Of a stretch of DNA of 64,000 nt, positions 4,661 to 61,323 are shown one piece after another; position 1 is the stretch's first letter, and the number at the start of each line of letters is the position of its first letter. Location of the stretch: positions 49,476,354 through 49,540,353 of the forward strand of contig NC_065536.1 of NCBI RefSeq assembly GCF_932294415.1, in the 5' to 3' direction. Origin of the DNA: Quercus robur. Taxonomy: Eukaryota > Streptophyta > Magnoliopsida > Fagales > Fagaceae. The translations under genes and the position numbers were made by a program. Below the pieces are notes generated by a model. That model saw only the letters and a list, made by a program, of their open reading frames with translations, did no database searches and was not told the origin of the DNA.

Positions 4661-5573
4661 CTCCCTCCTTTCACATGAGTGAACTCCACTGTAAATATGG
4701 AAGAAGGAAGTACTATTCTCCATGCTCCGGAAATACTTAAAAATTACTTAATAAAACTATAAAAGTGAGGATGAAACTTTTGTGGAAAAAGAATTGGGAA
4801 TGGGAAGTGTTTCTACCAACGAATATGGGGAGCAAATTTTGATGAGGCCGGCCTCGTGTTGTTAAATTTACCTGGCTTTAGGCTTAGATGATTCTTCTTA
4901 CTTCTCTTTAAATTACTTAGGAAAACAAAAATTAAAATTTGTACAATAAAGAAAAAAGTCATGTACTAATACTAAAGTTTTACAATAAACATATTTTTTA
5001 TTCCTATATTTTTGTTCTATTTTCAAATTGGTCCTTACTTTTTTTGGTAGTTCCTTGTGTTTTTAAACTTGCAATCATTTTAGTCTTTGTCATCATCTCA
5101 CTTATGGAAAATGCTTACATGACTGATGGTGGTTACGTTTTAATATTAGGTGCTTTTCTAAGTAAGATGATAGAATAGACAAAAATAACAATAAATTTAA
5201 AATTTTAAGGACCAAAATGAAAATTGTGAAAACTTGTAGACCAAATTGAAATTAGGGCCAAAATATAGGGATCAAAAATGTGTTTTGCATTATTTTTATA
5301 CTTATTACCCATGTTAAGGAATAAACCTTTTTTTTTTTTTTTTGAGAAAAAAACCATTTTGGTTATGAATAATTATTTTTCATTTTAAATAACAATTAAT
5401 CCTAAGTAAGAATTATTCCTTATAATACTGCTAAAAATATATTTCTTATAATAAAAACATCAGCAGATAATTAAATAGTTATTACATCACACGGTCTACA
5501 ATTTTTCAAACGAATCTTTGATTTATTTTGACTAACTTGCTAGTCTAGCAAGGACTTCAATTTGTTGATTTTG
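4661..5573. other. gene-free AT-rich stretch downstream of the OMT pseudogene
   Basis: No coding region recognised. Around 4990-5280 opposed motifs (AAATTGGTCCTT and GGACCAAAATG) suggest a decayed fold-back element, but ends and target duplications are not clear. Confidence 0.35.
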
Positions 5574-5949
5574 CTAGCAGATGCGCCTACAAAGGGTGAG
5601 GCCATCGCCAATTGAAATGAGGGATGATTCAATGCGGGGATCAGTTGCTGGAAAGCTGTTCAATTCATCAAAATACTTTTTGCCAATCCTCGAAAATTCC
5701 TCCATCTTATCATCTTCAGGGTCTGCCACCGAACCAAACCATAAGGTATTATCATATGCAATTATTCCACTAATCTTAACCAGTTTCAAAAGTAGCTCAT
5801 GATATTTGATGTAGCCTTCCTTATCAGCATCCACAAATGCAAAATCGAATGCCCCTTCTTGTTTGCCCTGCATTCATAATTATGAAATTAAGGTAAGTAT
5901 ATATGTGCAACTTATCTTCGGTTGCACAAAATAAAAGGAGACAGAAGAC

Positions 5950-6065
5950 TAAGGGTCTATTTGGATAGAGGAGAGAATGAGGGGAGTAGAGTAGAGTTGA
6001 CTAAAAATAGGCTAATTTTGGGTAAAATCTACTCTACTCTACTCCTCTCTCTCTTCTCCTAACAT
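5950..6065. mobile_element. short MITE-like inverted repeat
   Basis: Starts TAAGGGTCTATTTGGAT, the type of end seen on the GGGTCTGTTTGG MITEs elsewhere in the window, and has inner inverted arms GGAGTAGAGTAGA / TCTACTCTACTCC. The right terminus is degraded. It lies in the last intron of the OMT pseudogene. Confidence 0.4.
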
Positions 6066-6375
6066 ATATTATAAGTAGTATTTAGGAAGAGAAATGAAAA
6101 GGTTCAATTGAGTAGAACTGAAGACAATATTGATAAATTATGAATTTGGTCAAATTATTTGCACAAATAGGAGTCAAATTTGGAATGTCATTATTCATCA
6201 AAATATAACATTTTTAAAAAATTTTAGCAAGAGAAAATTTTAGATTCACTTCTTTCACCTTTTAGGAATAGAGGGGAAAAAAATACAAAAAACCTAAAAT
6301 TTTCCCCATTACTGATATAGCACATTTACCAGTAGCTAGCAGAAAAGGTATATAAAATAAAATAAAAAAGGACAA

Positions 6376-6823
6376 AGATCAGTTAAAAAATTAGTTGTAC
6401 CCTTTCTTCTTCTTTTTTTTTTTTTTGAAAAGAAAATTAGTTGTACCCTAAGATTACAACCTTACTCAATAAAATAAATACTACTACATATTTTAAAAAT
6501 CTAACCGTAAAGTTGCATGTTCTTTACACTCTTAATACACATGTCAAATTTTATGTCAATCGAATATTATTTATTATATGATCTATAAGCTTATATTTTA
6601 TCCATAATTTTAAATTATAAATACTTACAATTTAAACAATTTATTGATGACATTGTTATGGATCTTTAATTTTTTAGAAATTTTGCAAGAATGGAGGATA
6701 TAAGAAGAAAATGTAATTCCATGGTAGATTTGTCAAAATTCACCTCCAATAAATAAATAAAAAAAATTTAAGTAAGGTTGTAGCCTAAGGTTATAACCAA
6801 TTTTGAAGCTAAACTTTGTCCAA
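6376..6823. mobile_element. MULE-type MITE, same family as the one at 39239-39634
   Basis: The right end, reverse complemented, starts GGACAAAGTTTAGCTTCAAA and the left end carries TTAGTTGTACCCTAAG. The inner sequence (Tgttctttacactcttaa motif, ATTGATGACAT, GGTAGATTTGTCAAAATTCA) matches 39239-39634 along most of its length. It lies in the last intron of the OMT pseudogene. The left boundary is blurred by a T-run and a duplicated motif. Confidence 0.6.
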
Positions 6824-7114
6824 AAAAATTCAAGGGAGGCCAAACTTTTTCTTTAAAAAAAAAAAAAATTTAGAAACAGACACAGGAGAGGGAACGAGAT
6901 TTTAACATAAACACACAGCACAAGCTCTATTGAAAAGGCATGAAAGCTTTTAAGGGAGAAAATTTATGTAGTAATTATGAAAAATTTTGGAGTTAGTAAC
7001 TTATTTTATTAATTTCCTTGTCACTAGACTGTTTACTGCAAAATATTGCCTTGTCATGGTTTTATCATTGAGGTATATTATGGTTAACCACCCCAATTTC
7101 TTGTTTTTGTTTTT

Positions 7115-7230
<116 letters not shown>

Positions 7231-7541
7231 AGTACTGATGCCTGGTTGGAACTAATTTGAAACTCCTCATCCTATCAAAAAATAATAATAATAATAAATA
7301 AAATTGGAAATTCTTCATGTTTTAGCAATTTGTTCTGCTTCTTGATTGTTGGATAAGATCAACAACAGAAAACACTTTTACCCCACACTTCTAGTATGAG
7401 CACCTACGATTGCAATTTATTTATTTTTATTTAACAAACATACGATTATTAACTTAAGTAGACATACAATTGCATCATGCATCGTGCAAGAAACTTACAT
7501 TGGTAATTAGATCATTCAAAATTGGCAAGGCATCTGATTCA

Positions 7542-7754
<213 letters not shown>

Positions 7755-7758
7755 CTAT

Positions 7759-8685
<927 letters not shown>

Positions 8686-8946
8686 TCAAAAGTAATAACT
8701 TTAGTAAAGATATGTTTAAAAAAAAAATGTTATTTATTATCTTAGGCAGTGACAGTGCATGAAATTTAATAAAATGAAGTGCAATAAAATGTAAGATACA
8801 TAGCTCTAACTGTACCCATGCTCCTCTTCTTGCAATTTGTAGGAGGCTTGAAAAATTAATTAAGCCAATTACAATATGCCACATCAAAATTTAGTGACAC
8901 ATTTCAAATTTTACCACATATTTCTATCTTCTTTAGTAAAAAGAAT

Positions 8947-9323
8947 GGCAAATTACAATTTATCCACCTATGGTTTGACCGAAATTTAAGTTGTCTATTT
9001 GTAGTTTGAAATTTGACACTTTACCCACCTGAAATTTGACCAAAATTTAAGTTGCTTACCTGTGATTTGAAATCTCATGTTGCAAATGTTCTGCAAAATT
9101 CTTTTTTATCTTATTTAATCTTGTATTTTTATATTTTTTGTATTTTTGGAGGAGTGAGATATAAAAGTAGAGCAAAATTACATATTTAGCCATGTTTTTA
9201 AGAGAAGTGCATTACAAAACTTTAACCAAGCTAATCTCAAGAAGGTAAAGTGCTAAATTTCAAATCATAGGTAGGCAACTTAAATTTTGGTCAAACCATA
9301 GCTAATTAAGTTGTAATTTTCCC
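8947..9323. mobile_element. MULE-type fold-back MITE with 10-bp target duplication
   Basis: Flanked by TAAAAAGAAT at 8937-8946 and 9324-9333. Ends GGCAAATTACAATTTA and, reverse complemented, GGGAAAATTACAACTTA. The inner inverted motif is CACCTATGGTTTGACC / GGTCAAACCATAG. It lies in the intron between exons 2 and 3 of copy 1 and is absent from the same intron of copy 2. Confidence 0.8.
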
Positions 9324-10085
9324 TAAAAAGAATTTGACACATATCATTTGAGCCCACGAGATAGAGATATAAATAAAATAGAGATAATTATCTTTATTCA
9401 AATAAATAAAAATAGAGATAATTGTTTACAAGCAAAGTTCTAGTGAGACCTTCTGACTTTGGACTAAGAACACATTCAAATTTCAGAGAATGAGAGAAAT
9501 TCGTAAACACAAAATTCGGAGGATATATGACATATTCCCTTCTCTCTGTTCCTCCCTTTTCTCCCTCACCATGGTAAAGCAATTATATACCCATCAAACA
9601 TCCAAACCAAAATGACTTTAAAATAGTGCTTGGAAAGAAAATTATGACCCACCAAAAAGGATGTTCTTTCAATTGCTCATGCTCTCGTGGTTAGCTTTTT
9701 TCCAAAATGTACTGCAACATATGAAATCACGTTAGAGGAAGGTGAGCCATATTGAGATACATATTGATAAAAGATTCTCACATATTTGGATGCCTTTGAA
9801 AAATAAAGGAAAATATTTGTACGATTATGACAAATACTAGAATGTCCAAAATCTAAGTTTTAGGACTAGTTCCCGAAATACTTGTCAACTGGGTTGGTGA
9901 TGGGCCTAAGGACTAACGTGGAATAGTCAAAGCAATCCGAAAGAAAGCACTAAATAGTCACTATCATAACGCTACCGTATAACAAAACTTTTTTTTTTCT
10001 TTTTAATGTTATTTTTAAGAGTATTTATATCAAAAATGTATTCTTAAAAAAAAGAAAAAAACATAAAAAATGTGCTAGAATCTCA

Positions 10086-12014: not shown

Positions 12015-12263
12015 CAAGGACGGATCCAGCCGGGGGTCTAAGGGGGCCTAGGCCCCCTTGGGCCCAAAAATAAAATTTTCGACAAAAAAAAAAATAAAAG
12101 ACCTTGGCCCCCCTATCCCAGCCGGCCAGCCCAGTCAAGACTCAAGAGCCCATGTAAATCTAAAAAAAAAAAAAAAAAACTAATCACGCAAGACTCTTGC
12201 GTGATTAGTTTTTATGACAATACATTGGAGTTGTTGGAATTACAAGCTTCCTTTTATTATAAC
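12015..12263 (+). mobile_element. left end of a hAT element
   Basis: Begins CAAGGACGGATCCAG followed by G- and C-runs (GGGGGCCTAGGCCCCC), a start typical of plant hAT elements with TTF-type/HAT-dimerisation transposases. It is interrupted at 12264 by the Tat-type retrotransposon. The continuation lies at 22652 onwards, leading to the hAT transposase C terminus at 22746-23234 in the same orientation. Most of the transposase is missing, and no right terminus was found. Confidence 0.6.
12175..12213. repeat. perfect 19-bp palindrome with a one-base loop
   Basis: Left arm 12175-12193 (AAAAACTAATCACGCAAGA), single C at 12194, exact reverse complement at 12195-12213. It sits in the hAT remnant 50 bp from the retrotransposon insertion site. 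Confidence 0.9.
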
Positions 12264-12872
12264 TGATGATACCGAAAATCGTCAGTAAATTACACGGTCC
12301 TCACGTGCTCCAGACAGCACCTATGAAACAAAAACAAAAAAGACCTTGAGAGAGTATCGGTGTGATACCAGCCAAAAACCCTCTGAAGGTTAAGTTAGAG
12401 AACTTTCACAACTCTAGAATGTCAGAACTTGGGCAATTATGCATACCTTGGTTCGTGAAGGTCTTGGGGTTTTTATAATAGCATGGGGTTGATATTTGTT
12501 CCTTGGCTTAGAAGATCTTTTCTTGTGGGAGAGATCTTCTTTAATTCATGTATCTTACGAGATCTTTTCCTTATAGGACTCTCTTGATTAGGGTTAAGCG
12601 TGGGCACAAGATACATGGCAACCTCGTCAAAGGTTCGCTTATCCTCTTCAGCTTCCCCCCATCAGCTTCATATCCCATCAATATATTCTAGTTGTCTCAT
12701 TTAGATGTTTGTTGTCTTCAAGGTGCAGCCGTCAACTTTGAGGTGGAACCGTCAACTTTCATTCTATCGTTGTTAGGTCGTGAACGATTAAGCGAGGCTG
12801 ACGAGTTCATTAGGACCATCACTTTCGCCTAATACAGACAACTTCATCAAAACCACAGAATTACCCTTATCA
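12264..12872 (-). repeat. 3' LTR of the Tat-type element
   Basis: Bounded by TG (TGATGATACC) and CA (CCCTTATCA). Directly inside, on the minus strand, is a purine-rich AGTAAAGGGCAGA at 12873-12885 as polypurine tract. Matches 22014-22646 along its whole length. Confidence 0.92.
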
Positions 12873-19700: not shown

Positions 19701-20177
19701 ATGACAGATGGGTGGAAAGGAGGGCGACATATTCAACCTGTGCACCATGACTGAGGGGTCGATTCATGGCATGTCTTCATGGCTCCAAGCAAATACATCC
19801 CGATTATCTTTGAGAAAACTTGTGAGTGCTGGGCGGACCATCGGGCTGGCAAGGGTGCTAATCCTGGTTGTTCTATCAGTCTTGGAGTCGTCGAGAAGTT
19901 TCTCTTCAAGCCTTTCAATGAGTTTTGCCACTATCCATTGCCCTTCTATGTTCATTGTCTGTAAGTAGTCGTCCATTTCCAACATTGCTACGTAACACTC
20001 GTGTGCAGCCACTTGGTCTCCACGTACTTCTCCTACTCCGTATTCGGTGGAAAATTTGATCATTAGGTGGTAGGTTGAAGCTACGGCCTTTCATGAGTTG
20101 AGGGTAGGTCGTCCGATGATGGCATTATAGGCAGAAGAGCAGTCAACAACAAGGAATATGACGTCTATAGTGATTTG

Positions 20178-20576
20178 CTAAGGATAATCATCAACCGTAA
20201 TGGGCAGCGTGACTGCGCCGAGGGGGTATACTTTAGTTCCTCTAAACCCAATGAGTGGGACGTTGGTCGAGACCAGTCGTTCTCTGTCAATCCTCATTTG
20301 CTGGAACGCCGGGTAGTAGGGGATATCAGCAGAGCTTCCGTTGTCGACCAAAACCCAATTCATGTTGTAATCTCCAATCTGTATGCTAACGACGAGTGCA
20401 TCATCATACGGGTGGTGGAGACGTAGAGCATCTTCTTCTGAGAATTCGATGATGGGTTTATCGATCCGCGCCATTTTTGGGATGAAACCCATTAGTTGGA
20501 CATTCAAAACCATCCTGAGATAGGTCTTACGGGCTTTTTTGGACGACCCAATGGCCGTTGTACCTCCTACAATCAT
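20178..20576 (-). pseudogene. retropepsin-type protease region of the Tat element
   Basis: Holds VLVDNGSSADI, the form of the protease active-site motif usual in Tat elements, followed by YPAFQQM and further on LIGFRGTKVYPLGAV. The open frame is 132 codons. It sits between gag and RT, as expected of a gypsy element. The adjoining segment 19764-20063 continues the same polyprotein as a linker. Confidence 0.8.
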
Positions 20577-21004
20577 TCTTATATCTCTTATGGGCGTCTA
20601 GGGCACTCGTTCTCCCGTCAGGGAACCTGGTCTTGAAGTGGTTCTGCTTTCTCCTTGCTGACAAACTTCTACAACTTTCCTTACTTGATGAGAGTTTCAA
20701 TTTATTGCTTCAAGTCGTAGTAGTCGGCTGTGTCATGACCGTGATCACAGTGGAAGCGGCAGTACTTATCACTAAACCTTTTATTAAGATCTCCGTTCAG
20801 CTTGCCAGGAAAGGTCAGGGCTCATTCGTCCTTGATTTTCATTAAGACATGGTCGATCGGGGCAGTCAGCGGGGTGAAGCTCATGAACTTCCCTATAGGG
20901 GGCTAGGAGCGCTTGTCCTCCCCCCGTTCTTCGATCCTAGCCATCTTTTGCCCCCTATCTTACTATATGTCTTCCTGTCTTTCCCTCTTCTTGGGTTTCT
21001 CTTC

Positions 21005-21946
21005 TCAAGCCAGAAGTGCGTCTTCCGTGTTCATGTACTTAGTCGCCCTATAAAGCACATCTGACATAGTCTTTAGGTCGTTCTTATATAGAGAAAATAG
21101 GAAATTACACTTCCGTAGCTCATTCGTGAATGCAGCCACAAGTATCTTGTCGTTAACTTCATCGATTAAGAGTGCCTCTTTGTTAAAGCGGGCTATGTAA
21201 GACCTCAGTTTCTTATCCTCCTGTTGCTTAATGCTCATCAGGCACGCAATGGACTTCTTATACCTGTGCCCCCCGATAAAGTGCAAAGCAAACTAGGCAC
21301 TTAATTCCTTAAAGGTACCAATGGAGTTGGGAGTCAACCTGCTAAATCTTTGCGGGACCCTTCAGCGTAGTGGAGAAGGTCCTGCACATGATCTCATCTG
21401 CCACCGCCTGAAGATCCATCAGGGTCTTGAAAGACTCCAAGTGATCTAGGGGGTCCTTGGATCTGTCATAACTTTCCACCTGTGACATGCGAAACTTCGG
21501 CGGAAGAGGGAACAAAGTGACGAACGCAGTGAATGGCGAATCAGTTTGATGGACCAAGTCATCGAGGTCGCTAGACACTCGTCCTCTAAAGGCGTTCATC
21601 ATAAAGTCCATCCATTCCTTCATCATTTGCATCTCTGCGACTATGTGAGATGGGGCTATATCTATGACAGATGGACGACTCGTGTCCTGTTATTTTGGTC
21701 TGCATGGGGCGTTGCTACCTTCCGGCCCTTCTTGGTTCTTTCTCTCAGCGCTGGTACCTTCTTGGTCTTCCTCCTGTGTGTTAAGCTTCGTGTTCTTTTG
21801 GTGCAACTACTCTTCCAAACTATGGTTTTTCTTGGTGAGGCGCTCCACAGCAGCGGCGAGAGTTTGAACCTATCTCTCGAAGGCGGTTGTTTGTGGTTCG
21901 TCTCCTTGAACATTTTGGTGGTCGCCATCGAGCGAGTAAGTACCAT
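21005..21946 (-). pseudogene. gag region of the Tat element
   Basis: Three open pieces in different frames, 21946-21662, 21632-21342 and 21286-21005. Recognisable gag blocks are PFTAFVTLFPLPPKFRMSQ, YDRSKDPLDHLESFKTLM, then GGHRYKKSIACLMSIKQ, RSYIARFNKEALL and LVAAFTNEL. The first piece is Lys/Arg/Ser-rich, as in Tat gag N termini. At least one frameshift and two stops separate the pieces. The putative start (21946) lies 68 bp inside the 5' LTR. Confidence 0.82.
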
Positions 21947-21993
21947 ACAACTCTTTGTCCGGGAAGCGATAGTATAACTTAAAAGTCACAAGG

Positions 21994-22013
21994 TTCCCAC
22001 AAACGATGCCAAC
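21994..22013 (-). other. primer binding site candidate
   Basis: Immediately inside the 5' LTR, read on the minus strand: GTTGGCATCGTTTGTGGGAA. It resembles the TGGCGCCGT-type tRNA-primer sites of plant gypsy elements, with two substitutions; I cannot say which tRNA. Confidence 0.55.
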
Positions 22014-22646
22014 TGATGATGCTGAAAATCGTCAGTAAGTTACACAGTCCTCACGTGCTCAAGACAACACCTACAAAACAAAAACAAGAAAGACCTTAGG
22101 AGAGTACCAGTATGGTACCAGCCAAAAACACTCCGAAAGTTAAGTTAGAGAACTTTCACAACTCTAGAGTGCCAGAACTGGGGGAATTATACATACCTTG
22201 GGTCTTGGGGTGTTTATAGTAGCATGGGATTGATATTCGTTCCTTGGCTTAGAAGATCTTTCCTTGTGGGAGAGATCTTCTTTAATTCAGGTATCTTACG
22301 AGATCTTTTCCTTATAGGACTCTCTTGATTAGGGTTAAGCGCGGGGCATAAGATATTTCCTTATATGCTTATGCGTGGAGACCAAGCCATGTTAGCCTCA
22401 TCAAAGGTTCGTTTATCCTCTTCAGCTTCCCCCCGTCAGCTTCATATTTCGTCAATATATTCTAGTTGTCTCATTCAAATGTTTGTTGTCTTCAAGGTGT
22501 AGTCGTCAGCTTTGAGGTGGAATCGTCGACTTTCATTCTATCGTTGTTAGGTTGTGAACGTGTAAGCGAGGCTAATGAGTTTATTAGGACCGTCGCTTTC
22601 GCCTAATATGGATGACTTCATCAAAACCACATAATTACCCTTATCA
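22014..22646 (-). repeat. 5' LTR of the Tat-type element
   Basis: 633 bp, TG...CA, alignable over its length with 12264-12872. It carries an extra 20-odd bases near 22350-22375 relative to the other LTR. Most substitutions are C/T or G/A, as expected after long methylation. Confidence 0.92.
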
Positions 22647-22745
22647 ATAACACATCATGCAAAATAATGTTTCCTATTCTTCTTTCCTTTTTCTTATTTA
22701 CTTTTTAATTAATTTTTTTTATACAAGCGATAATGTGAAAATAGA

Positions 22746-23234
22746 ATGGAGTTACTTAGGCTTAGCTCAGCTTTAGAACCTCAAGAGGCATTAAAATCTT
22801 TCAGAAGTAGTGATCTTTGTTTGTTGGTAAAGAATTTCTATCCACAAGATTTCACAGATTATGACAAACAAGTGTTGGAGAATGAGCTTTATCATTTTGA
22901 GCATAATGTAGTCCGAGATCTAGAGGTCAAAAAATTGAACAGTTTATCTGAGTTGTGCCAATGGTTAGTGAAAACTGGAAACTCAGAACACTACAAACTT
23001 GTTTATAGAATGGTAAGACTTGTGCTTACTCTTCCAGTTTCTACTGCTACTACAGAGCGAGCATTTTCGGCTATTAAAGTTGTCAAAACTAACCTTCGAA
23101 ACAAAATGGAAAATGATTTTTTGACGGACTCTTTAATGTTATACATTGAAAAGGATATAGCTTCGACATTTAGTTTGGATTCAATCATAGATGATTTTGA
23201 AGATTTGAAAGAGCGTCGAGTTCCCTTTTCATAG
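22746..23234 (+). pseudogene. hAT transposase C-terminal fragment (HAT dimerisation domain)
   Basis: An open frame of 162 codons with the C-terminal hAT dimerisation signature: LSELCQWLVKT, then LVLTLPVSTATTERAFSAIK, then MENDFLTDSLMLYIEKDI. It corresponds only to the last fifth or so of a TTF-type/zinc-finger-MYM-like hAT transposase. The DDE catalytic core and zinc finger are absent, and the ATG at 22746 is almost certainly internal. It is the right half of the hAT remnant whose left end is at 12015-12263. Confidence 0.85.
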
Positions 23235-23859
23235 ATGATTGTATTAAGAAATAATAGTGTTTCGTATATTTTGTTTTTGTTGGTAGATGATTGTATCTTA
23301 ATAAATTAAGAAACAATGATTTTTGGGTATTTGTCTTGGTTGATAGTTTATTAATACTATATGATCTTGGTTGATTTTTGTAGGATAAACCAAATGTTAG
23401 GCAGTGTTTGGGAAAACCTGTAATTTAATATCTTTTATTAAGTTATTGGAAAATTCTTAGTTTACACTATACTTGCAGTATAAGATTTATGTTATTAGCA
23501 TAATGTAAACCTATAATTGCTCAAAATAATTTGTTCAAATAAATGGGGAAATCAAGAGGATACGTCTCTCCCTCATAGGGAATCTATTAAGGAGACCCCT
23601 TCAAACTTACCTCTCTTCTGTGCGTAGATCGCCGTTCAACTTCATTGAGGAGAGTAAAAGGTAGAAAAAAAAATTGATGGGTTAGCGATTAGCATCATCT
23701 TAAGTGAAGATACTACAAATATTATATTCAAAATTTTTGGAAATCCTACTACTATATATGAAGCACCTTCTGGTCTAAAAGTAGCTAGAGAAAAGATATC
23801 TTTATTTTTTAATGGAAATACACACAGCAAGCAACAGATGCTGATCAAAAACAAGATAG

Positions 23860-24200
23860 AAGTACAAGAAATAAAACAAACCCAGAAGTGGTATGGGACG
23901 AGTTAAAGATAACAGGCTTAAATATGAATTGTTTTTGTTGGTACTTGGTTGCATGGAAGATTTGGTACATCAAATGTAAACTCACACACGAGCGTAGGAG
24001 AAAGGAAGCATGTAAATTGACGGAGGAAGCTACAAAAGTACTAAGAAGAATATTTTCGAAAGGAAAGTAAGATGAAGTGGCACAATCTCTGAACTGGGAC
24101 CAGATTATTTTCAAAGGTGATGCAAAGGCTTGTTTCGATCCTATATCGACCAGACTTAACTCCCAATTAACTATACAGGCTATCAGCATCATGATCAGTA
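23860..24200 (+). pseudogene. LINE 3' fragment (RNase H-like part)
   Basis: Reads VAWKIWYIKCKLTHE, a Lys/Glu-rich link, then after a stop SLNWDQIIFKGDAKACFD. This order (WxIWxxRN-type segment, then the second RNase H strand with 'EGDSxxC') is that of the C terminus of plant L1-type LINE polyproteins. It is only about 110 codons long and broken by a stop near 24070. Confidence 0.55.
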
Positions 24201-24205
24201 ATGTG

Positions 24206-24413
24206 TCAAGTTTAAGTGTGAGTTTAGATAGCACGTTTGTGCATTTCAGTGCGTCTAATTTTTTTTTAGTGGGTCCATGTGTACTGTTCACAGACCCACA
24301 AAAGTCAGCAAATAAGTTTGGGTCCCACCATATTATTTGCACCTTTAAAAAATTATTTTGCTACAATATTTTTAGCAATAAGTTTTCAATTTTCAGAAGT
24401 GGTATCCAATGCC
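24206..24413. mobile_element. PIF/Harbinger-like MITE of the GTTTGGAT family
   Basis: Begins near TTAAGTGTGAGTTTAGATAGC and ends GGTATCCAATGCCC. The inside matches the copies at 41356-41572 and 46692-46910 (GTGTACTGTTCACAGACCC, AAAATTATTTTGCTAC, TTTTCAATTTTCAGAAGT). Confidence 0.6.
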
Positions 24414-24494
24414 CAAAGCAGTTTTAATGGCAAGGTGAAGGGTTTCCAAAAGAAGTTTTTAAAGGAAGTTAGGGCTCATTACCATAATCTGCAG

Positions 24495-25646
24495 AACAAA
24501 ATGATTAACATTAGCATCAAGTCTAATTCCATGGTCATTCCAAGCGAGCCTACTCCAAGTGGCCTATTGCAGTTATCTGAGATTGATCAAGCAGCACAGT
24601 GGACTCATGCACCAATCATACACATTTACAAACCCAACAACAACACCCATCTTCATTCGAGAAGAAGAAAAATGCCTTAAGTTGTGCATTGGTTCACTTC
24701 TACCCCTAGCTAGCTGGCTACGCTAGAAAGAAGGCGGCCAACTAGAACTTGATTGCAATGCAATGGGAGTGCAAGTATTGGAAGCTTATGCTAACACAAA
24801 ATTGGATATTGGTGATTTTGCGCCTACTGGTGTAGTCAAAGATCTTGTCCCTAAGATTGATTATACTACTCCAATTGAGTAGTAGCCTTTGTTCCTGGCA
24901 CAATTGACAAGATTTAGCTGTGGTGGCATTTGTGTTGGAACAGCCATATCTCATACCATGGTTGATGGACGATCTGCAACTAACTTCATCAGCTCATAGG
25001 CAAAGTTGGCTCGAGGATGAGATTTGGAGGACGATGAGATACCAATTCTTGATTGAACTGTGTTGAAATCAAGTGAACCGCTTATGAAGCCGCGCTTTGA
25101 TCGCATAGCATACACCACAAAGTCACCACTCGTGATCGGGAGCCTGGATGCCAAGGAAGAGCAAATGAAGGAAACTAGTGTGGCCTTATTAAAACTTACA
25201 AGAGAGCAAGTTGAGGGACTAAAGAACAAAGCCAATAATGAAACCCCATATCAAGAAAATGGGGTGTCAACAATAAGGCCCTATTCTAGATACGAGGCTA
25301 TTTTCGGCCACATGTGGAGGTGTGCTTGTAAGGCACGTCATGCATTTGATCGCGACAATCAATCTACAAGAGTTCGCATTGTAGTTGACATTCGCAACTG
25401 GTTAAATCCACATCTCTATAAAACAATATTTTGGAAACGCAATTTGTACTACAGTGACATCAACATGTCTCTATGGCGACCTCTTGTCCAAGCCACTAAG
25501 TTATTTTGTTGGAAAACTAAGGGAAGCCATTGAGACTGTGAAAGACAAGTATATAAGGTCTAATCTTGATTTTAGAGCAAGCTAGAAGCATGTTGATGGT
25601 CTAAGGTTCAGCTTTCACATTCGAGGACTTAGTACAGAAGCACATT
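24495..25646 (+). pseudogene. BAHD acyltransferase pseudogene, spermidine hydroxycinnamoyl transferase-like
   Basis: Protein similarity runs through the whole stretch: SEPTPSGLLQLSEIDQ and QWTHAPIIHIYKPN at the N terminus (from about 24525), LELDCNAMGVQVLEAYA and GDFAPTGVVKDLVPKIDY in the middle, then the BAHD catalytic HTMVD (HxxxD) at 24952-24966, and RPYSRYEAIFGHMWRCACKAR further on. BAHD enzymes move acyl groups from CoA thioesters; the SHT-like subgroup acylates spermidine. In-frame stops (24880-24886, 24997, 25019, 25053), frameshifts and loss of the DFGWG-containing C terminus make it non-functional. Its 3' part is repeated inverted immediately downstream. Confidence 0.85.
24892..25646 (+). 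repeat. left arm of a 755-bp inverted duplication
   Basis: Near-identical in reverse complement to 25680-26435, with only scattered substitutions. Covers the HxxxD motif to the point where the BAHD pseudogene ends. Confidence 0.92.
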
Positions 25647-25679
25647 ATATAGCAAGTCAGAAGCACATTTCACATTTCA

Positions 25680-26435
25680 AATGTGCTTCTGTACTGAGTC
25701 CTCGAATGTGAAAGCTGAACCTTAGACCATCAACATGCTTTTGGCTTGCTATAAAATCAAGATTAGACCTTATATACTCATCTATCACAGTCTCAATGGC
25801 TTCCCTTAGTTTTCCAGCAAAATAACTCAGTGGCTTGGACAAGAGGTCACCATAGAGACATGTTAATGTCACTATAGTACAAATTGTGTTTCCAAAATAT
25901 TGTTTTATGGAGATGTGGATTTAATCGGTTGCGAATGTCAACTACAATGCGAACTCTTGTAGATTGATTGTCGCGATCAAGTGCACAACGTGCCTTACAA
26001 GCACACCTCCACATGTGGCCGGAAATAGCCTCGTATCTAGAATAGGGCCTTGTTGTCGACACCCCATTTTCTTGATATGGGGTTTCATTATTGGCTCTGT
26101 TCTTTAGTCCTTCAACTTGCTCCCTTGTAAATTTTAATAAGGCCACACTAATTTCCTTCATTTGCTCTTCCTTGGCATCCAAGCTCCCGATCATGAGTGG
26201 TGACTTTGTGGTGTATGCTATGTGATCAAAGCATGGCTTCATAAGCAGTTCACTTGATTTCAACATAGTTTGATCAAGAAATGGTATCTCATCGTCCTCA
26301 AAATCACATCCTCGAGCCAACTTTGCCTATGAGCTGATGAAGTTAGTTGCAGATTGTCCATCAACCATAGTATGAGATATGGCTGTTCCAACACAAATGC
26401 CACCACAACTAAATCTTGTCAATTGTGCTAGGAAT
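25680..26435 (-). pseudogene. inverted copy of the BAHD acyltransferase pseudogene
   Basis: Read on the minus strand it repeats the HTMVD motif, the ISS-stop-AKLARG sequence (the same TAG as in the plus-strand copy) and the 157-codon open stretch ending MSLW. Sharing the stop shows the gene was already dead when this duplication arose. It differs by keeping two codons that are stops on the other arm (CDFEDDEIPFLDQ). The loop between the arms is 25647-25679. Confidence 0.9.
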
Positions 26436-26439
26436 GAAG

Positions 26440-27520
26440 ATAGGCATGTCCCATTAGCCACCTGTGACTTAGAAAGAATTAATGCTGATGAGTTAGAAAT
26501 CAACACTTGATAAAAAAGACGCCTGGTACCTCGAGGAACCCAGGAAAGTGAACCATGAAGAAAGGTGGCTGAGGTTCTTTCAGCTTAACAGGTAGGAATC
26601 CACCAATTTAGAGGAAAAGACAAAAGATGAGGCAGCCAAAAGGTGGGGTCTGAAAAGGTCCATCTAGAAGCTTAGGGAAGAGAAGATTGAAAATCAACTT
26701 TTAGGAACCCCACAAAAAGGAAGGTTAGTTGGGGACTTTTTAAGGGGAAATCTCAAAAGAAGGCTATAGTGAGAAAATAAGGAAAGGACCAGCCACCAAT
26801 ATTGCTAACACAACATTGGTTTTGGTACCTAGGGCAACAAATGAAAGGAATCAATGGCACACCAAAAACTCTAGGAAGATACTATAAAAAGGGATTAAGC
26901 CATCAGCAAAATTCATTCAACAATAACTAATCAGAGCCAAAAAAGCCTTTGAAAGACTTCTTAAAAATTCAAAAAAGGAGAAAAAAGGAAAAACACTGTG
27001 AGAGATCCTGAGATAGGCACTAGAGGATACACTTGAATTTAAGGGGATTCAAACCTCACAAGTCTTAGAAGCCCACAAAGAGCTATCTAAGTCTGTGACC
27101 TTTGAACTTATTTGAACCTTGTGACATATCCTAGTGGAAAGAAGGGCTCAAAGTACTAAAACTCAATATAATGAAATATCATTTTATTTTCTGAGGAGCC
27201 CTAACGTCTTTATTCTATTTTCCTTTATTTCTCTATTGTTCCTTAGCCATTTGTTTTACAATATATATATATATATATATACACATATGAGTATGTATGT
27301 GTTGTAGGATCTATGTTTTGTGCACAACTTAGTTCGTAATCAGCTGAACATAGTTGCAGTGAACCAAGCCCAGTCCACCAAACAAGTACAAAACTCTTTG
27401 AGGGCCCAGGATCCTTGATTCTACTTGGACTTGGGTATTGTCCAAAAATAAGAACCCACACCCTCTTAGTGCAATGAATTGAATTTGAATTTAAATGCTT
27501 ATAGTAAAAAACTACAATAT
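26440..27520. other. gene-free stretch
   Basis: No protein similarity recognised. Purine-rich on the plus strand with many GGxAAG motifs (26500-27060), ending in a (TA)n run at 27262-27280. It could be part of a non-coding retroelement, but neither LTRs nor TIRs were seen. Confidence 0.3.
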
Positions 27521-27523
27521 TAC

Positions 27524-27909
27524 ATGAGAAATGCTATATCCACAATATTTTTACAGCATTTTCACAATAAATCTTATGTGACAGGTTGTTACTTGCTGTT
27601 ATTAGGGTCTGTTTGGGATCCGCTTATTTTGCTGAAACTGAAATTTTTTTGCTGAAAATACTGTACATAAAGGTAAAAGTTAGCTAAAATAGTATAGTAA
27701 GACCCATGAATAGTACCAAAAAGTGTTGTGGAACCCATGAATAGTAGCAAAAATAAGCTGAATAGTAAAATAAGTTGGCAAAAATAATCTTTGCCAAATG
27801 GACACTTAGTGGGCAACAAAGTAATTTCAATTGTAAATTCAAATTAAAAACCTGTGACAACCTAACAACTAGGATTTGTTGTGAAAATATTATGGACGTC
27901 ACACCTCTC
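27524..27909. mobile_element. hAT-type MITE interrupted by another MITE
   Basis: Ends GAGAAATGCTATATCCACAA and, in reverse complement, GAGAGGTGTGACGTCCATAA, with flanks ATATTACA / ATATTATA (7 of 8). Matches the uninterrupted copy at 45638-45797 on both sides of the insertion at 27605-27805. Confidence 0.75.
27605..27805. mobile_element. PIF/Harbinger-like MITE (Tourist type)
   Basis: Begins GGGTCTGTTTGGGATCCGC and ends TTTGCCAAATGGACAC, flanked by TTA at 27602-27604 and 27806-27808. The target site before insertion is reconstructable from the related hAT-type MITE at 45638-45797. Confidence 0.85.
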
Positions 27910-28393
27910 ATATTATATAGCAAAGCCCATACAATTCCTACGCAAATTTTTGGGTTTAGCTTTCCTCTAATACTTTTTTTTAACTAGAATCTCCTTTTAT
28001 TTTAATGAGAAACTGCCACATCATCCACTAACTAAATAAAACAAGGAGATTAAAATCCAATACCACTTGTCATTGTGTATTTAAAATAAAAGGAGACCCC
28101 CAGTTAAAAAAGTACTGGAGGTAAGCCAAAACCCAAATCTTTTGACCCACATCATGTTCCAGACTTAATGCCTTTAATGTTTGTTAGCGTGTTTAACATC
28201 GTAAGCAAAATGATAATGTTGTTGTTTAGCAACAAAAAAAAAAATGTTGTAAGCAAAATGTGGCTCTCTTTAGTCTTTTTGGCAACAGTGCTTGTTAAGG
28301 TTGAACTAAAGTGGACTCCAACTAATAAACAGTTGGGATAAATGAATGAAAAAAAATTACAATGAATGGTAGTTTTGTAAATAAGAAAGCATG

Positions 28394-28428
<35 letters not shown>

Positions 28429-28744
28429 GCACAATCCTAGAAATTTCTTATCTGAGCAAAAGTCTTTTATACGTCGAGCACATGAGTCCTTTGTCACACT
28501 AATAGGTGCCCCACAAGAGATACCTTCTCCTTATTTTCCCTTCCCATGTTTTTATCTCTTTTTTCTACTTTTTTTTTTTTTTTTTTTAATCTTTCTCTTT
28601 CGTTCCTCTTCTTAGTCACACTCCCTCTCAATTCTCAAACTTCTTCACCAGCGTGGGACATGGGCATTTGGTAGATGGGAAAGAAGAGAAATGTGAAAAA
28701 GGGCATTTTGGTCTTTTTGTTAATTTTTCTTTCTCCCTATAAAG

Positions 28745-30888
28745 TTGGCTCCAAACTTAGCAATATTTTATGGGGTCGGGATGTTCTACAGAGGGGAGCC
28801 AAGTGGAAAGTAGAGTGTAGGGACTCTATCAGCATTTGGCTTAACCAATGGTTTACCTTCAAATGATCATCCTCAAGTCTTATCTCTAGTAGTTGGCAGT
28901 TTTAAAGATGCCAAGGTCAGTTCTCTTATTAATCATATGTCCAATAGCTGGGATGAGGATTTAATCAAGGGTTTTTTACCCCCTAGAGGTCGAATTAATA
29001 CTCAGTATTCCCTTGAGTAATATGATGGTTGATGTTAGGGTCATATTTTCTATGTATTGGCATATTATTTGACAAAAAGCAATTTACTTGTAATTGGGTA
29101 GATCTAAGATGTGTTTAGGATATCAAGATGTGTGTTGATAAGACAAAACAAGTGGTATCTTGAAAGACATGAAGATTGAACCAAGAAACAAAGTGAAGAA
29201 AATCTAAAACAGTGAATCTCAACACTAGTCTTGACACAAGCTTGACACTACCATCTATTGAAACTTAATGAGTAATTCTCAACACAAACTCGACACCTCT
29301 CGATCTATCGAGCTATGCAGTTCAGAATTCTTAGTTTAGAATTTCATTCTATGATGACTTGAATTGCTAGGGTTTCATTCACTAAACTCCTAAATGGTAT
29401 AAAAGTTTTATTTTAAAAGTTATCAAGTACACAAAGACTCAGATTAGTGAATTCATATATTCTTAGGGAAGCTACTGCGTTCTTGTACATCTTAAGGTTT
29501 TGTAACCAAGTGCTTCCAAATCTTCAACATGATTTGAAGTGAAGAACTTTGCATCTAACAACAAACTTCAGTTGATGAGATCGGAAGTCAAACACGTACT
29601 GGGATTCGTGCAAAGGAAGAAGTCTCTACAAGATCAAGTCCAATTGAGGATTGGAGTAAAGGTTAACTGTAGGTTGGTATTTTGGGATAAACCAGGGTAG
29701 TGATAAGATTCCTTATACTTGTAACCACTTATTCTTAATTAGTGGATTTTTGGGAGTGGTGACATAAAATTCTCCCAGTGGGGTTTTTGCCTTGCGAGAG
29801 GTTTTCCCCATTCGTCAACAAATCAACATGTCAATTTAATTCCTGCTACACTTTAATTTATTTGGTGATTTGTGTGTGCCTCTATGATTTACATGTAATT
29901 TGACTTAATTAATTGACTTGGGTAATTGAATTAATTAACCGGGGTCAATCTATAACCCAACAGTTGAGGACAAACTTACTTAGCCATATGTCTCTTCTGG
30001 TTGTTACTCAGTAAAATATGGATACATATTCCTTATAGGGGAAAACTCTACAGTCCATCGGGTTCAAACATATCAATGTGATCAACAACCTCATTGGAAA
30101 GACATTTGGGGACTTCAAGTTCCAAACAAAGTCCAAAACTTCCTTTGGTGTGCATGTAGAGAAGCCATCCCAACAAAGAAGAGTTTGTGTCGTCGTCAAA
30201 TTCTCTTCAAGGATAATTGTGAACACTATGATATGTCTTCAAAAGATGTTCTACATGCTCTTTGGAATTGCCCAGCCCTCTCACCCGTTTAGGATTTCTC
30301 CCCAACCTGGTCTTTTGCACTACCACCATCCCTTTACTACCTTCCTGGATTTGTTTCGATATGTGAAGGAGGCAAGAAAAGATTTGGAGCCGTTCTCCAT
30401 GCTAGTTTGGACAATCTGGTTCCATAGAAATCAAAAACGCCTAAGGTCTGGTGTGTTCCCAATCGATCAGATCATTCCTTCAACTTCCCAAGCACTGCAA
30501 GATTTTGTTTGATGATGTGGAAGCTCTAGTGGCAATTCGAGCAATCAAGCTTGCTTAGGATTTCGAGGTCTCTGCTCTCATCCTTGAAGGTGATTCTCAG
30601 GTGGTTATAAATGCTCTGAGGGTAGAAGGTGACTCACTGGCCTTTTTTGGTCATCTCTTGGAGTTAGTGCAACCTACTATAGAAGCCTTTCATAGCATCT
30701 CATTCTCTCATACTTATAGATAAGACAATTTTGTAGCTCACAACCTAGCTAAACATGTTAAGCATGTTAGAGGTTTAAAGATGTGGGCATAGGATGTTCC
30801 TCCACATCTACTTTCTGTTCTTCCGGCTGATTACAGCTAATTTTTGTTTCAATAAAGTTCAGAGGTTTTCTTCTCAAAAAAAAAAAAT
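28745..30888 (+). mobile_element. 5'-truncated L1-type LINE remnant, interrupted by a solo LTR
   Basis: 5' piece 28745-29032: NILWGRDVLQRGAKWKVECRD and SISIWLNQWF, the stretch before the zf-RVT domain. 3' piece 29968-30888: a zf-RVT zinc-binding segment (FLWCACREAIPTKKSLCRRQI-like, and VLHALWNCPA), then an RNase H tail (FEVSALILEGDSQVVINAL, FSHTYR, NFVAHNLAKHVKH). It finishes with AATAAA and a poly-A run at 30877-30888, as LINEs do. Stops and frameshifts are scattered through it. The RT and endonuclease parts are absent because of the usual 5' truncation. Confidence 0.82.
29033..29962. mobile_element. solo LTR, probably Ty1/copia type
   Basis: 930 bp starting TGTTAGGGTCATATTTT and ending TCTATAACCCAACA, with a perfect 5-bp target duplication GTTGA at 29028-29032 and 29963-29967. 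Palindromic TGTTA/CAACA ends suit copia elements. There is no internal region, so it arose by LTR-LTR recombination. It splits the LINE remnant. Confidence 0.9.
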
Positions 30889-31316
30889 TTATTCCATCAA
30901 ATTCCCCAAAAAACACCTAAACATAAGCTTCTTAAATCCAGACAATGAAGGTAGTAAGGGACATAGCCGCAGATGGTTTTGAGGAAGGAGAAGTTGAGTT
31001 CTAGACATCTAATAGGTTTAAAGAAGAAAGAAGAAAAAGGTTTATTTTAATTGATTTATTACTAACACACCATGTTCATTTACTTTTATACCCAAGTACA
31101 TTTTAGAGATTTTTTATGATAGTTTTAACAGTTAACCCAAAACAGTTTTAACATGTGTATACAATTATTATTTTTGCTTTATTACAATTTTTATAAAAAT
31201 TTGGCATTTGAGAGAGTTTTATAACAGTTTTAACAATTTTTATATATAAAAAAAAAGTTTAACAATCCTAAATCAAATGGGATTTGTGCAAATAAATTTG
31301 GTATTTGCTACAATAC

Positions 31317-31812
31317 TGATGAAGCGTGACTTCATCAGTCGAGTTGAACGTGTCCAAATGGATCCAAGCTCTCATCTGGATACCTGCGTAAATGAAAAGA
31401 CCGCTCCTTTCAAGGTGGTCACCGGTGTGGTGCCTGCCACAACGTCTTCAATACCAAAGTCAAAACAGGAAAGTGCTTTGTAAAATGAAACAGAATAGCA
31501 GAATAACAATCAGTATCTTTCAGAGTGTCTGTGTACCTTGTGTTGGCAATGTAAGAGCTTTATATATGTTGCCTTGGATTCTAGCTGTTGTGGTTGTTAA
31601 TGCCTTTCTTGGTAACGCCTCTTGCCTAGTAATGAGGCTTTAATAGGCTCCCAACAGCCTGCATGGTTGGCTTTGTAACTACCCAAGTCATTTATTGACT
31701 ATATTGAATGATTTCCATCCTCGTTAGTGGTGATTGGTTTCTTCGTCTGTCAATATGACTTCGTCATTCTCAGTGGCTTCGTCTAGGAGATGTGGTCTCA
31801 TCAATCCCATCA
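31317..31812 (-). repeat. LTR of a second, truncated Tat-like element
   Basis: TG...CA bounded (TGATGAAGCG to TCCCATCA). Directly inside, on the minus strand, is a strong polypurine tract AGAAGGTGGGGGGTAAC (31813-31829), so this is the 3' LTR of a minus-strand element. The LTR opens with an 8-bp palindrome TGATGAAG / CTTCATCA. Confidence 0.75.
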
Positions 31813-32600
31813 GTTACCCCCCACCTTCTGTGGTTGCCATGACGTGTCATGATGACCATAGAAGATGAAAGGTTTTCTTGAGCTGTCCATGACTCTTGGG
31901 GTTTCGCTCTGAATTAAATGCATAGTGGCGACGCCACATGCGGCATGACCACGTGGCGCGTGCTGATCGGTGGAGTTAATTGCATGACCCTTTGGTTTCC
32001 CACTGTTTTTTAGTATTTTTTTTTTTTTGGGCCTTGGTTTTTTAAACTTTCCTCTCCTTCACTTTTCCCCATTTCTTTAATCATTTGCTCTAAGTTTCTT
32101 CTTTTCCATTCACTCTTGCGACCGTTCCGACCTTGTTCCGGCAATATTCTTTGGATTTTTCTCCGATTGAGCTGCTTATTCTCAAGGTATGTTCCTCTTT
32201 TCCTCTTCCTCTATTTCCTTTTTCTTCATAATCTGTTATAAGTTTCTGATTTTTCCTTTCTCTTTGCTTTGCTGTGATTGTTTTTGGCTTTTGGGCTTTT
32301 AGGATTCATCTCCTTCTTAGTTTTTCATGGTCAGTGACTCTGAGGTTAGGGTAGCTTGCCCCTCGGTCTCTTTCTTTTTGGCTCGCTTAGGGGTTGCTTT
32401 AGGTGTTTCTGGTGACTTTCTTCCCTTGGTTGGGGATTATATATTTGCAGGTTGTGGGTTGAGTGTGGTCTTAGGAGAGCTATCCCCAATACTTGGCCAA
32501 TCAATTGCTTGGTTTGAGGGTGAGACGAAGAGGATGTCAGAGGTGAGATCTAGTGAGCTCGAGACTGGGTTGTCGAGCATTCAAACTTTTAACTAATTGA
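31813..32600 (+). pseudogene. 5' part of an antisense gene of the second Tat-like element
   Basis: Plus-strand gene start placed like the aORF of the 12-22 kb element: a CT-rich leader (32040-32188), a likely intron from GTATGTTCC (32189) to GCTTTTAG (about 32302), then ATG at 32327 opening 89 codons (MVSDSEVRVACPS...). The peptide itself is not one I recognise. Homology with the first element's aORF is inferred from position and structure. The element is cut off near 32600. Confidence 0.45.
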
Positions 32601-33659
32601 AAACTATCATGCTTTAAATCCTAAATCTACTATATCATAAAAAATAAACATTTTTTTTTATTAAATTAAAGACAATAACAATATCAAACAACCAACAGGA
32701 TGTGAAATATCACCTGCATGCATAATTTTTTATGTTCAGTTTAGGTTTCAACAAATAATCCTAACACCAACACTTTGTGTATAGGATGAACCAGGCAGAG
32801 TTTAAATTAATGAAAAGAAAAGAAGAGATTTTTCTGTTAAGATTTTTAAATTTTATGGAATTTAATAATGATAGGAAGTAATTTTCATATTATCAATCAA
32901 TCAAGAGAGACATTCTTTGATCTAATAGCTTAGGAAAATATTAGGATTAAGTGATTAACCCAATAATTTGGGTACAAAATTCTATAATGTTTAAGGCTTT
33001 AAGTGCATTGAGGAAAAAGTCACACTCACAAGTCACAACTTAGTTTTCAGGGGTCAAATAATAGCCTAGTGGTTCGAATCCCCCACCCCACTGCCCCCCT
33101 TTTCTCTCTTTCCCTGTTATCTACGAATAAAAAAAACACAATTTTTTAGAGGTATTTTTGCATGCCTATGCCAATCATCTGCGATTTTCAATAAATCAAA
33201 ACATAATAATTGTATATATTATTGATGTAAAAATAAGCATAATATGTAGGTCAGATTAAGTCTCCTAATGAAGATTGTTTCACATGTGATCCATCAGATT
33301 AATAAGATGATATTGGCTTTATTCACTTTGATTAATTGCCCGCTGTTTCAGAAGAAAACAATCTCTTCAATTAGCATTGGACATGGGCAGTTTATTTTGA
33401 ACTTAAAACCAAGCTATATAGCAAATGCTGAGCATGCTCAGACAATGATCTAACTACGTATTTTATGTGAAATTATTCAATACACCTAATATATTAACGT
33501 AATACTAATACATTGGATATACGTAATAGATTCTCTTATTGATCATCCTTACTGTCACACATATTTGTGAGGTTTTTCAGACACTTGATTTATTCTAAAT
33601 AACCATTTGAGTAACATGCATGCTAGTGCAGCAGCTAGAACTTCAATTTGTTGATTTCA
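32601..33659. other. gene-free AT-rich stretch with a possible SINE relic
   Basis: At 33045-33130 a TAGCCTAGTGG (A-box-like) runs into GGTTCGAATCC (perfect B-box core), followed by a C/T-rich stretch and A-run, as in a shortened tRNA-derived SINE. Otherwise nothing recognised. Confidence 0.35.
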
Positions 33660-38611
<4,952 letters not shown>

Positions 38612-41137: not shown

Positions 41138-41355
41138 GGAGCATTCACATCTAAGCTGAGTTTGGATTGCACTGAAAACAATCCACGTGTGCGTTTGGTG
41201 TTTTTCCTTTGGGTCCGTATACTGTTTACGGAACCCCCAAATACAAAAAAAACATAAATTTTGTTTTAAAACTGGGTCCCACAGTACTATTTACACAATT
41301 AAAAATTATTTTACTATAGTGTTTTCATTAATAAATTTTTAATTTTCAACAATAA

Positions 41356-48149: not shown

Positions 48150-48830
48150 GCGTGGCACCATGCGCCACATTCTGCCTTAACGGTCGTCACGTATCGAGGA
48201 GGGGTCGTCAGGGACCAAGGGGTCAGGTACTTTCCCTAACACCATGCAACACATTCCACCCTGACGATCATCACGTATTAAGGGGTTGTCAAGGACCTAG
48301 GGGTCGTCAGGTACCTTCCCTGACACTATACGACACACTCTGCCCTGACGGTCGTCACGTATCAAGGGATTGTCAGGGACCAAAGGGTCGTTAGGGACCT
48401 AAGGGTCATCAAGTACCTTCCCTGACACCACGCAACACATCCTACCCTGATGGTCATCACGTATCAAGGGTCATCTGGGACCTAAGGGTCGTCAGGTACC
48501 TTCCCTGACACCATGTGACACACTCCACCCTGACGGTCATCACGTATCAATGGGTTGTTAGGTAGCCAGGGGTCGTTAGGTACCTTCCCTGACACCACGA
48601 GACACATTTCGCCCTGACGGTCGTCACGTATCAAAGGGTCATCAAGGACCTATAGGTCATCAGGTACCTTCCTTAACACCATGCGACACACTCTACCTTA
48701 ATAGTCGTCACATATCAATTGGTCATCAGGGACCAAAGGGTCGTCAAATATCTTCCCTAATACCACGCGACACATTCCACCCTGATGGTGGTCACATATC
48801 AAAGGGTCGTCAAGTACCCTACTCATCGCC
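48150..48830. repeat. tandem array of about eight 84-bp units
   Basis: The marker ACACCATGCGACACA and following CCCTGACGGTCGTCACGTAT recur at about 48158, 48240, 48325, 48426, 48508, 48593, 48678 and 48761: spacing 82-85 bp except one 101-bp unit with an internal duplication. Each unit contains a small stem, TCAGGTACCTTCCCTGA. Too long and too variable for CRISPR, and in a plant genome. Confidence 0.92.
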
Positions 48831-60124: not shown

Positions 60125-61279
60125 GTGACAATGGAACCATCAAATTTGAGAAAAAAAAAATAAAGGAACCACTATATGTGATAGAAGAACTATCAAAATT
60201 GATATTGGAGCTGCATAATGTGATAATTGAACCATCAAATTTGAGAAACAAATAAAGAAACCACTAAATGTAACAAAATAACTGTCAAATGTGATGTTAG
60301 AATTGCACATTGTGAAAATGAAACCATCAAATGTGAGAAATAAATAAGGGAACCACTAAATGTGAACAAAGAACTGTCAAATGTAATGTTGAAATTGCAT
60401 AATGTGAGAATGGAAACATCAGATGCGAGAAAAAAATAAGCAAATTACCAAATATGAGAAAAGAACTGTCACATGTAATGTTGGAACTGCATAATATGAG
60501 GATGGAATTGTCAAATGTAAGAAAAAAATAAGGGAACCATCGAATGTGATAAAAGAACTGTTACATGTGATGTTGGAATTACACAATGTGAGGATGAAAT
60601 TGTCAAATGTGGAAAAAAAAATTAAGGGAACCACCCAATGTAACTAAAGAACTGTCACATGTGACAAAAATATAGTAAATGCGATGTTGGTACTGCTTAA
60701 TATGACAATGAAACCATCAAATTTGAGAAAAAAAAATAAAAGAACCACTATATGTGACAAAAAAAATTGTCAAATGTGATATTGGAACTGCACAATACGA
60801 TAATGGAACCATCAAATGTGAAGTTAAAAAATAAGGAAACCACCAAATGTGACAAAAGAATTGTTAAATGCGATGTTAGAACAGTACAATGTGAGGATGG
60901 AACCGTCAAATGTGAGAAAAAAGTAAGAGAACCACCAAATGTAAGAAAAGAACTGTCACATGTGATATTGGTATTGCGTAATGTGAGGATAGTACCATAG
61001 AATGTGAAAAAAATAAGGGAACCATCGAATGTGACAAAAGTACAGTCACATGTGATATTGGTACTGCGCAATGTAAAGATAATACCATCAAATGTGAGAA
61101 AAAAATAAAGGAACCACCGAATGTAACACAAATATAGTCATATGTGATCTTGGTACTACGAAATGTGAGGATAGTACCATAAAATGTGAGAAAAAAAATA
61201 AGGGAACCATCGAATGTGACAAAAGTACAGTCACATGTGATGTTGGTACTGCGCAATGTGAGGATAGTACCATTGTGAG

Positions 61280-61319: not shown

Positions 61320-61323
<4 letters not shown>

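Follow-up and report, generated by a model that had tools for sequence, protein, structure and literature searches.

The window analysed here is a stretch of 64,000 nucleotides of the Quercus robur genome (contig NC_065536.1 of assembly GCF_932294415.1, in our numbering C3:49476354-49540353), and the genome that we searched with it comprises 785.7 Mb in 42 contigs. In the window lies a long hairpin made from a broken gene of the BAHD acyltransferase family, the parts of which are listed in Table 1. The search for repeats in 24000-27500 returned one large inverted repeat, with two arms of 760 nt on either side of a spacer of 33 nt, and a base-by-base count gave 715 identical positions out of 760 (94.1%) without a single gap. 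The initial annotation had placed a nearly perfect hairpin with a 33-bp loop at 24892-26435, which is right to within five bases at each border and exact for the loop, while "nearly perfect" has to be read as 94.1%. The layout, a long gene-derived inverted repeat with a short spacer, is of the kind known from the soybean locus GmIRCHS.

Table 1. Parts of the hairpin locus and its borders, with positions numbered from the first base of the window.
Feature	Position	Strand	Remarks
MITE-like repeat in 5' leader	24215..24413	+	common to the C39 sister copy; not in the intact C40 gene
Leader and single-copy 5' part of SHT-like pseudogene	24414..24886	+	start codon 24501; no second copy in the inverted arm
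Sense arm (arm 1)	24887..25646	+	original-frame stops TAG 24997 (common to both arms), TGA 25018, TGA 25054, TAG 25583
Trp-to-TAG stop in both arms	24997..24999; 26329-26327	+; -	in-frame; TGG in C40, C39 and both C5 genes
One-base insertion (frameshift) in both arms	25420..25423	+	inside a run of A
Loop	25647..25679	+	partly rearranged gene copy; 18 nt at 25648-25665 resembling 25573-25590
Antisense arm (arm 2)	25680..26439	-	the sense arm's three additional stops are absent
Truncated multi-copy repeat adjoining the antisense arm	26430..27467	+	junction with near-identity over about ten bases

The inverted repeat cannot have arisen by chance. In positions 20001-32000, exact inverted matches within 5 kb reach 53 nt, and 20 shuffles of the same stretch in two-base blocks gave at most 17 nt, 12 of them remaining below the 14-nt seed, and the fold of the central 831 nt of the hairpin has a z-score of -57.5 against 20 shuffles. 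The small background with which it can be compared, the window plus 18 other loci (159 kb), contains otherwise only inverted repeats with arms of up to 168 bp (at locus L011, about 0.8 kb apart) and palindromes of up to 218 bp in all.

Relatives of the arms are few and can be read at the level of single sites. A profile search of the genome with Pfam family PF02458 gave at least 99 matches (97 of 321 candidates were scored), and a DNA search with arm 1, in which the best candidates were scored, gave seven. These are the two arms themselves, an intact gene of 463 codons on contig C40 (92% identity), two intact genes on contig C5 (79-80%), and two pieces of a sister pseudogene on contig C39 (C39:51182500-51182886, which is 4901-5287 of locus L019); no further gene emerged beyond these among the best candidates. 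Read from arm 2 with an X placed at both the stop and the frameshift, the protein matches PF02458 with an E-value of 5.7e-39 (134.4 bits, cut-off 22.7), and two pieces of the single-copy 5' part match it with E-values of 7.2e-7 and 1.5e-4, the second below the Pfam cut-off. From the ATG to the arm, the 5' part is identical to the C40 gene at 353 of 386 ungapped aligned bases. The arm alone leaves the subgroup undecided, with 147.6 bits to the SHT chain AtSHT (6lpv_A) versus 145.5 bits to HCT, and it is because of the intact C40 protein, which scores 412 bits to AtSHT 6lpv_A versus 355 bits to HCT 4g0b_A, that we place the gene in the SHT-like rather than the HCT-like subgroup. BAHD acyltransferases are marked by the motifs HxxxD and DFGWG. 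The C40 relative carries both, as HTMAD and DFGWG; HTMVD is found in each of the two arms, in a broken frame, and neither arm extends to the DFGWG part, which is situated past the fold-back. Given the broken frame and the missing DFGWG part, the locus is a pseudogene and not an enzyme, and the identification as an SHT-like BAHD pseudogene made from the bare letters thus stands.

The two arms have two lesions in common, the Trp-to-TAG stop and the one-base insertion. The residue at the stop is Trp in AtSHT chain 6lpv_A, and the insertion is the sole gap column of the arm region in a three-way alignment with the C40 gene; beyond the common TAG, arm 1 has three more stops in the original frame and arm 2 has none. 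Since the lesions are common to both arms, the duplication probably took place after the death of the gene, and the simplest reading of the sequence is that the gene probably died before it was duplicated in inverted form. This is the order of events that the initial annotation had proposed from the stop alone, and the insertion now adds a second lesion to it. Gene conversion between the arms could likewise have spread the lesions. No conversion tract is visible, however, as the differences are spread fairly evenly (3-8 in each of ten 76-bp bins) and the longest identical run between the arms, 53 bases, is about what 45 randomly placed differences would give by our estimate of the expectation.

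The sister pseudogene on C39 is itself a second, short fold-back, in which gene positions 1-305 in sense orientation are followed by positions 355-266 in antisense orientation, giving 40-nt arms (97.5% identical) with a turning point different from that of the window hairpin. The C39 copy and the window have 12 derived sites in common, C40 and the window three, and C40 and C39 one. Within the arm region, four sites are common to the two arms alone (three of them derived as judged by the C5 outgroup), one to arm 1 and C39, and none to arm 2 and C39. On these small counts, the fold-back of the window is most likely younger than the split from the C39 copy, and each of the two fold-backs probably formed on its own. 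The alternative of a single long ancestral hairpin, of which the C39 fold-back would be what erosion has left, is disfavoured by the four sites versus one and by the TGG that C39 has at the position of the common stop. The 90-nt antisense piece on C39 agrees with arm 1 at 88/90 positions, with C40 at 88/90 and with arm 2 at 85/90, and hence has, as far as such small counts go, no special tie to the antisense arm. The C39 pseudogene also contains a tandem direct duplication of about 293 bp (L019 5487-5778 and 5779-6071, 98.6% identical) that takes in part of the leader repeat and the start of the gene.

The differences between the arms comprise 40 transitions and 5 transversions (Kimura two-parameter distance, 0.063), they are distributed over codon positions 1, 2 and 3 as 14, 15 and 16, and they affect 12 codons synonymously and 28 non-synonymously. 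By these measures the arms decay neutrally. With C40 as the outgroup, C>T or G>A accounts for 30 of the 40 changes private to an arm (five three-state sites were left out), and where C40 and locus L003 agree, changes of this type make up 23/31 of the private versus 5/17 of the stem changes (p = 0.005). Unpolarised transitions fall on 20 of 73 CG/CHG sites versus 20 of 259 CHH sites (p = 2.6e-5). The decay after the duplication therefore probably resembles that of DNA with dense CG and CHG methylation. The same decay is seen outside the hairpin. The single-copy 5' part has decayed at least as strongly, at 8/33 of its CG/CHG sites versus 8/53 in arm 1 and 9/53 in arm 2 (CG sites alone, 5/13 versus 2/23 and 3/23; CHG sites alone, 3/20 versus 6/30 in each arm), for which reason methylation specific to the hairpin is not claimed. 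Since the 5' part likewise decays by C-to-T changes, this is a mark of the whole pseudogene and is not tied to the hairpin; dense cytosine methylation would cover the unduplicated 5' part as well as the arms.

The borders of the locus bear on how it was formed. On the left, homology to the C39 copy starts at 24215 and homology to the C40 gene only at 24414, and the segment between them, the leader repeat, has related copies elsewhere: its part at 24319-24395 resembles 41273-41348, and a related stretch in locus L021 also matches positions 41273, 41484, 46823 and 53035 of the window. To judge from its ends and its dispersal, the leader repeat would be a miniature inverted-repeat transposable element (MITE). 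At the turning point, the 18-nt stretch in the loop agrees at 16 of 18 positions with the arm-2 version of the gene 75 bases earlier and has AGTCAG as in C40. On the right, the antisense arm adjoins a repeat with at least 40 matches in the genome, the window's own included (the best 40 of 703 candidates were scored), and all nine of the other copies that we fetched share sequence with it from 26430 onwards, which is still ten bases within the arm, and have right ends corresponding to 27457-27468. At this outer junction, read by eye, the gene has AGGAACAAAG and the repeat copies have AGGAACGAAG, which are alike at nine of ten bases. A BLAST search with the nine copies found no left remainder of the repeat in the window, and the left flank of the locus (23560-24230) has two genome matches, namely itself and a weak one of 126 bp, and is essentially single-copy. 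On these two observations we reject the simple insertion of a hairpin into the right-hand repeat. The scrambled loop, the near-identity at the junction and the missing left part of the repeat are features of template-switch copying or of fold-back repair.

We propose, with a rough probability of 0.65, that a truncated and already dead SHT-like gene copy folded back on itself during the repair of a break, and that it has since decayed neutrally and is likely to be silent. In such an event a growing strand or a resected end would switch to the complementary strand about five-sixths of the way along the coding sequence, some 760 bases would be copied backwards after the switch, and the copied end would then be joined to the right-hand repeat. 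The sister copy on C39, with the same topology and another turning point, argues for copying of this kind. Several points weigh against our proposal: the inner turning point is, by eye, without a clear long microhomology, the branch counts given above are small, the single-copy 5' part has decayed no less than the arms, and a local inversion after a tandem duplication would give similar arms.

The silence of the locus is the part of this proposal that departs from the initial annotation, in which the hairpin was put forward as a possible source of small interfering RNAs (siRNAs) against functional relatives. If it were transcribed, the locus would yield a double-stranded RNA of about 740 pairs that would be cut by Dicer-like enzymes. 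The predicted fold of a 1553-nt transcript of the plus strand has -1344.9 kcal/mol and 745 pairs (23 of them G-U), with a longest uninterrupted stack of 111 pairs, in keeping with the duplex over some 750 bp that had been expected for a transcript crossing the loop. Of the 1480 21-mers of the arms, 209 occur exactly in the C40 gene and 1088 with up to two mismatches, and 19 and 14 occur exactly in the two C5 genes, whereas loci L001 and L005-L008 contain none. The count of siRNA matches to intact BAHD genes that the initial annotation had called for was thus run for eight BAHD places out of the 99 PF02458 matches, and three of them, all intact homologues, have identity at siRNA length while the other five have none. 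By these matches, siRNAs cut from a transcript could target between one and three SHT-like genes.

We consider it unlikely, nevertheless, that the locus works in the manner of GmIRCHS, which would mean that it is transcribed and that Dicer-like 21-22-nt siRNAs lower the mRNA of the C40 gene and perhaps of the two C5 genes. The near-complete predicted fold, the 209 exact 21-mers and the same layout speak for such a function by analogy. Against it, the sequence preceding the leader repeat has a single match, of 29 bp, to the C39, C40 and C5 loci, and no TATAAA or TATATA is present on the plus strand in 23901-24500. The arms decay neutrally, and changes that would preserve pairing are not favoured, the transitions that keep a G-U pair numbering 22/40 for a plus-strand transcript versus 18/40 for a minus-strand transcript (p = 0.64). 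Nor do the changes private to C40 in the arm region have an excess of the methylation type, with 6/20 C>T or G>A where the arms and the C5 genes agree, and 6/21 where L003 alone is used beside the arms. When C40 is compared with C5 only, so that the direction is not fixed, differences of the C>T/G>A type amount to 32/126 in the arm region, 18/58 in the 5' part and 15/28 in the 3' part that the arms do not cover, and hence nothing here points to methylation directed at the part homologous to the arms. Cleavage of mRNA without methylation leaves no trace of this kind, and the changes in C40 are therefore compatible with post-transcriptional silencing. Regulation in trans is possible, and nothing in the sequence favours it. 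The hairpin is thus probably decaying, silent DNA rather than a working silencer, and its likeliest outcome at present would be silence, or local 24-nt siRNAs with methylation, and not the control of other genes.

The other explanations concern the formation of the locus. A route in two steps, in which the pseudogene was first duplicated in tandem and one copy was then turned by a local inversion, would end in an identical arrangement, and a local inversion is what has been invoked for the inverted part of the persimmon gene OGI (PMC7048303). We regard this route as unlikely, as the scrambled loop of 33 nt, the near-identity of the junction with an unrelated repeat and the second fold-back in the sister copy all fit an error of copying better.

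A variant of our own proposal is that copies of this gene were spread by break repair beginning in the dispersed, MITE-like leader repeat and finishing with a fold-back, every new copy thus being a hairpin from the outset. The copies on C3 (760-bp arms) and C39 (40-bp arms) have a common left border at the outer end of the repeat and different turning points. Such a history would seem quite unlikely, and if it were true, repair starting in the MITE-like repeat would be a recurring generator of hairpin loci, and potentially of siRNA loci, directed against one family of metabolic genes.

It is very unlikely that the segment was moved as cargo by a terminal-inverted-repeat (TIR) transposon of the Pack-TIR type with the MITE-like end at 24215 as its starting point. 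The homology between the C3 and C39 copies does stop at the outer end of their common MITE-like repeat, and a repeat end of a related kind is present at 27611 (alignment score 24), though in direct orientation; neither 26400-28200 nor the sequence beyond the C39 fold-back had an inverted partner end that stood out (scores of 14-16 with two inverted patterns), and no target-site duplication was recognised by eye. An assembly artefact, whether a fold-back read (a well-known pitfall of long-read libraries) or a mis-join of haplotypes, is extremely unlikely as the source of a hairpin with arms that differ at 45 evenly spread substitutions of a biological spectrum with no indels, that have different flanks, and that lie together within one contig of 69.0 Mb.

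Plants presumably draw on long hairpins made of gene fragments as the raw material for new siRNA and microRNA (miRNA) genes, and a model in which plant MIRNA genes are born by inverted duplication was reportedly set out by Allen in 2004. In this model, of which PMC3237417 is an update, a hairpin made from a fragment of a target gene would be the presumed first stage, and the oak hairpin is like it in this respect. Neither the hairpin nor any other part of the window has an Rfam match at the gathering score (Rfam being without some miRNAs). The closest parallel is GmIRCHS, a pseudogene arranged tail to tail, of 1,087 bp and 78 bp apart, from which double-stranded RNA was detected and which its authors put forward as the candidate trigger of CHS silencing (PMC13051633). 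Both loci are pseudogenes of an enzyme of specialised metabolism, tail to tail with a short spacer and with intact homologues elsewhere in the genome; the oak arms differ in being 94% alike. Judged by sequence, the anatomy of the oak hairpin closely matches that of GmIRCHS, and this kind of locus is already known.

In rice, two inverted pseudogene pairs with small RNAs are listed in PMC2708354, where the stem of the example is 185 nt and its loop 1,283 nt, and small RNAs of the parent gene were not detected for the pair described. These too are adjacent pseudogene copies on opposite strands that could give a hairpin RNA, and unlike the oak locus, with a stem four times longer and a loop of 33 nt, they were called with the help of small-RNA density. 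The persimmon gene OGI likewise carries an inverted repeat derived from a gene paralogue, and is described as repressing MeGI via small RNA (PMC7048303). The comparisons with GmIRCHS, with the rice pairs and with the MIRNA model differ in one further way, which is that the oak locus is known from sequence alone. For the proposed mechanism, the nearest case is that of the fold-back inversions of yeast, in which inverted duplication proceeds via a hairpin intermediate in gross chromosomal rearrangements selected in the laboratory (PMC7467729), while the oak case is a small, fixed segment in a plant.

We found no paper that joins spermidine hydroxycinnamoyl transferase with siRNA, none on an inverted-repeat small-RNA locus of the BAHD family as judged by titles and the openings of abstracts, and nothing on point for Quercus among the matches listed. 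The oak locus is of use because its intact relative, its sister copy and its mutation spectrum can all be read, so that expression, methylation in cis, activity in trans and mere decay are alternatives that can be tested. The evidence so far favours decay, and the locus thereby provides a useful counter-example to the assumption that every hairpin made from a gene is a regulator.

The window has several other repeated features. Direct repeats of about 610-635 bp (88-90% identical) are present at 12261-12872 and 22011-22646, nearly 10 kb apart, around a stretch richer in GC, and they go with a Pfam match to "putative gypsy type transposon" just below the cut-off; together they are probably a long terminal repeat (LTR) retrotransposon. 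At 22734-23234, 88 bases from this probable LTR element, an open frame of 166 codons contains a hAT-family C-terminal dimerisation domain (E-value 3e-13). Two blocks at 5547-9765 and 33633-36270 are collinear in the same orientation with 79-90% identity, as would be expected if a segment had been duplicated long ago or if a single repeat were present twice. Of two tandem arrays, one, in a C-rich stretch at 48200-48818, has units of about 84 bp, and the other, a long one at 59011-59208 and 60125-61770, has units of about 92 bp.
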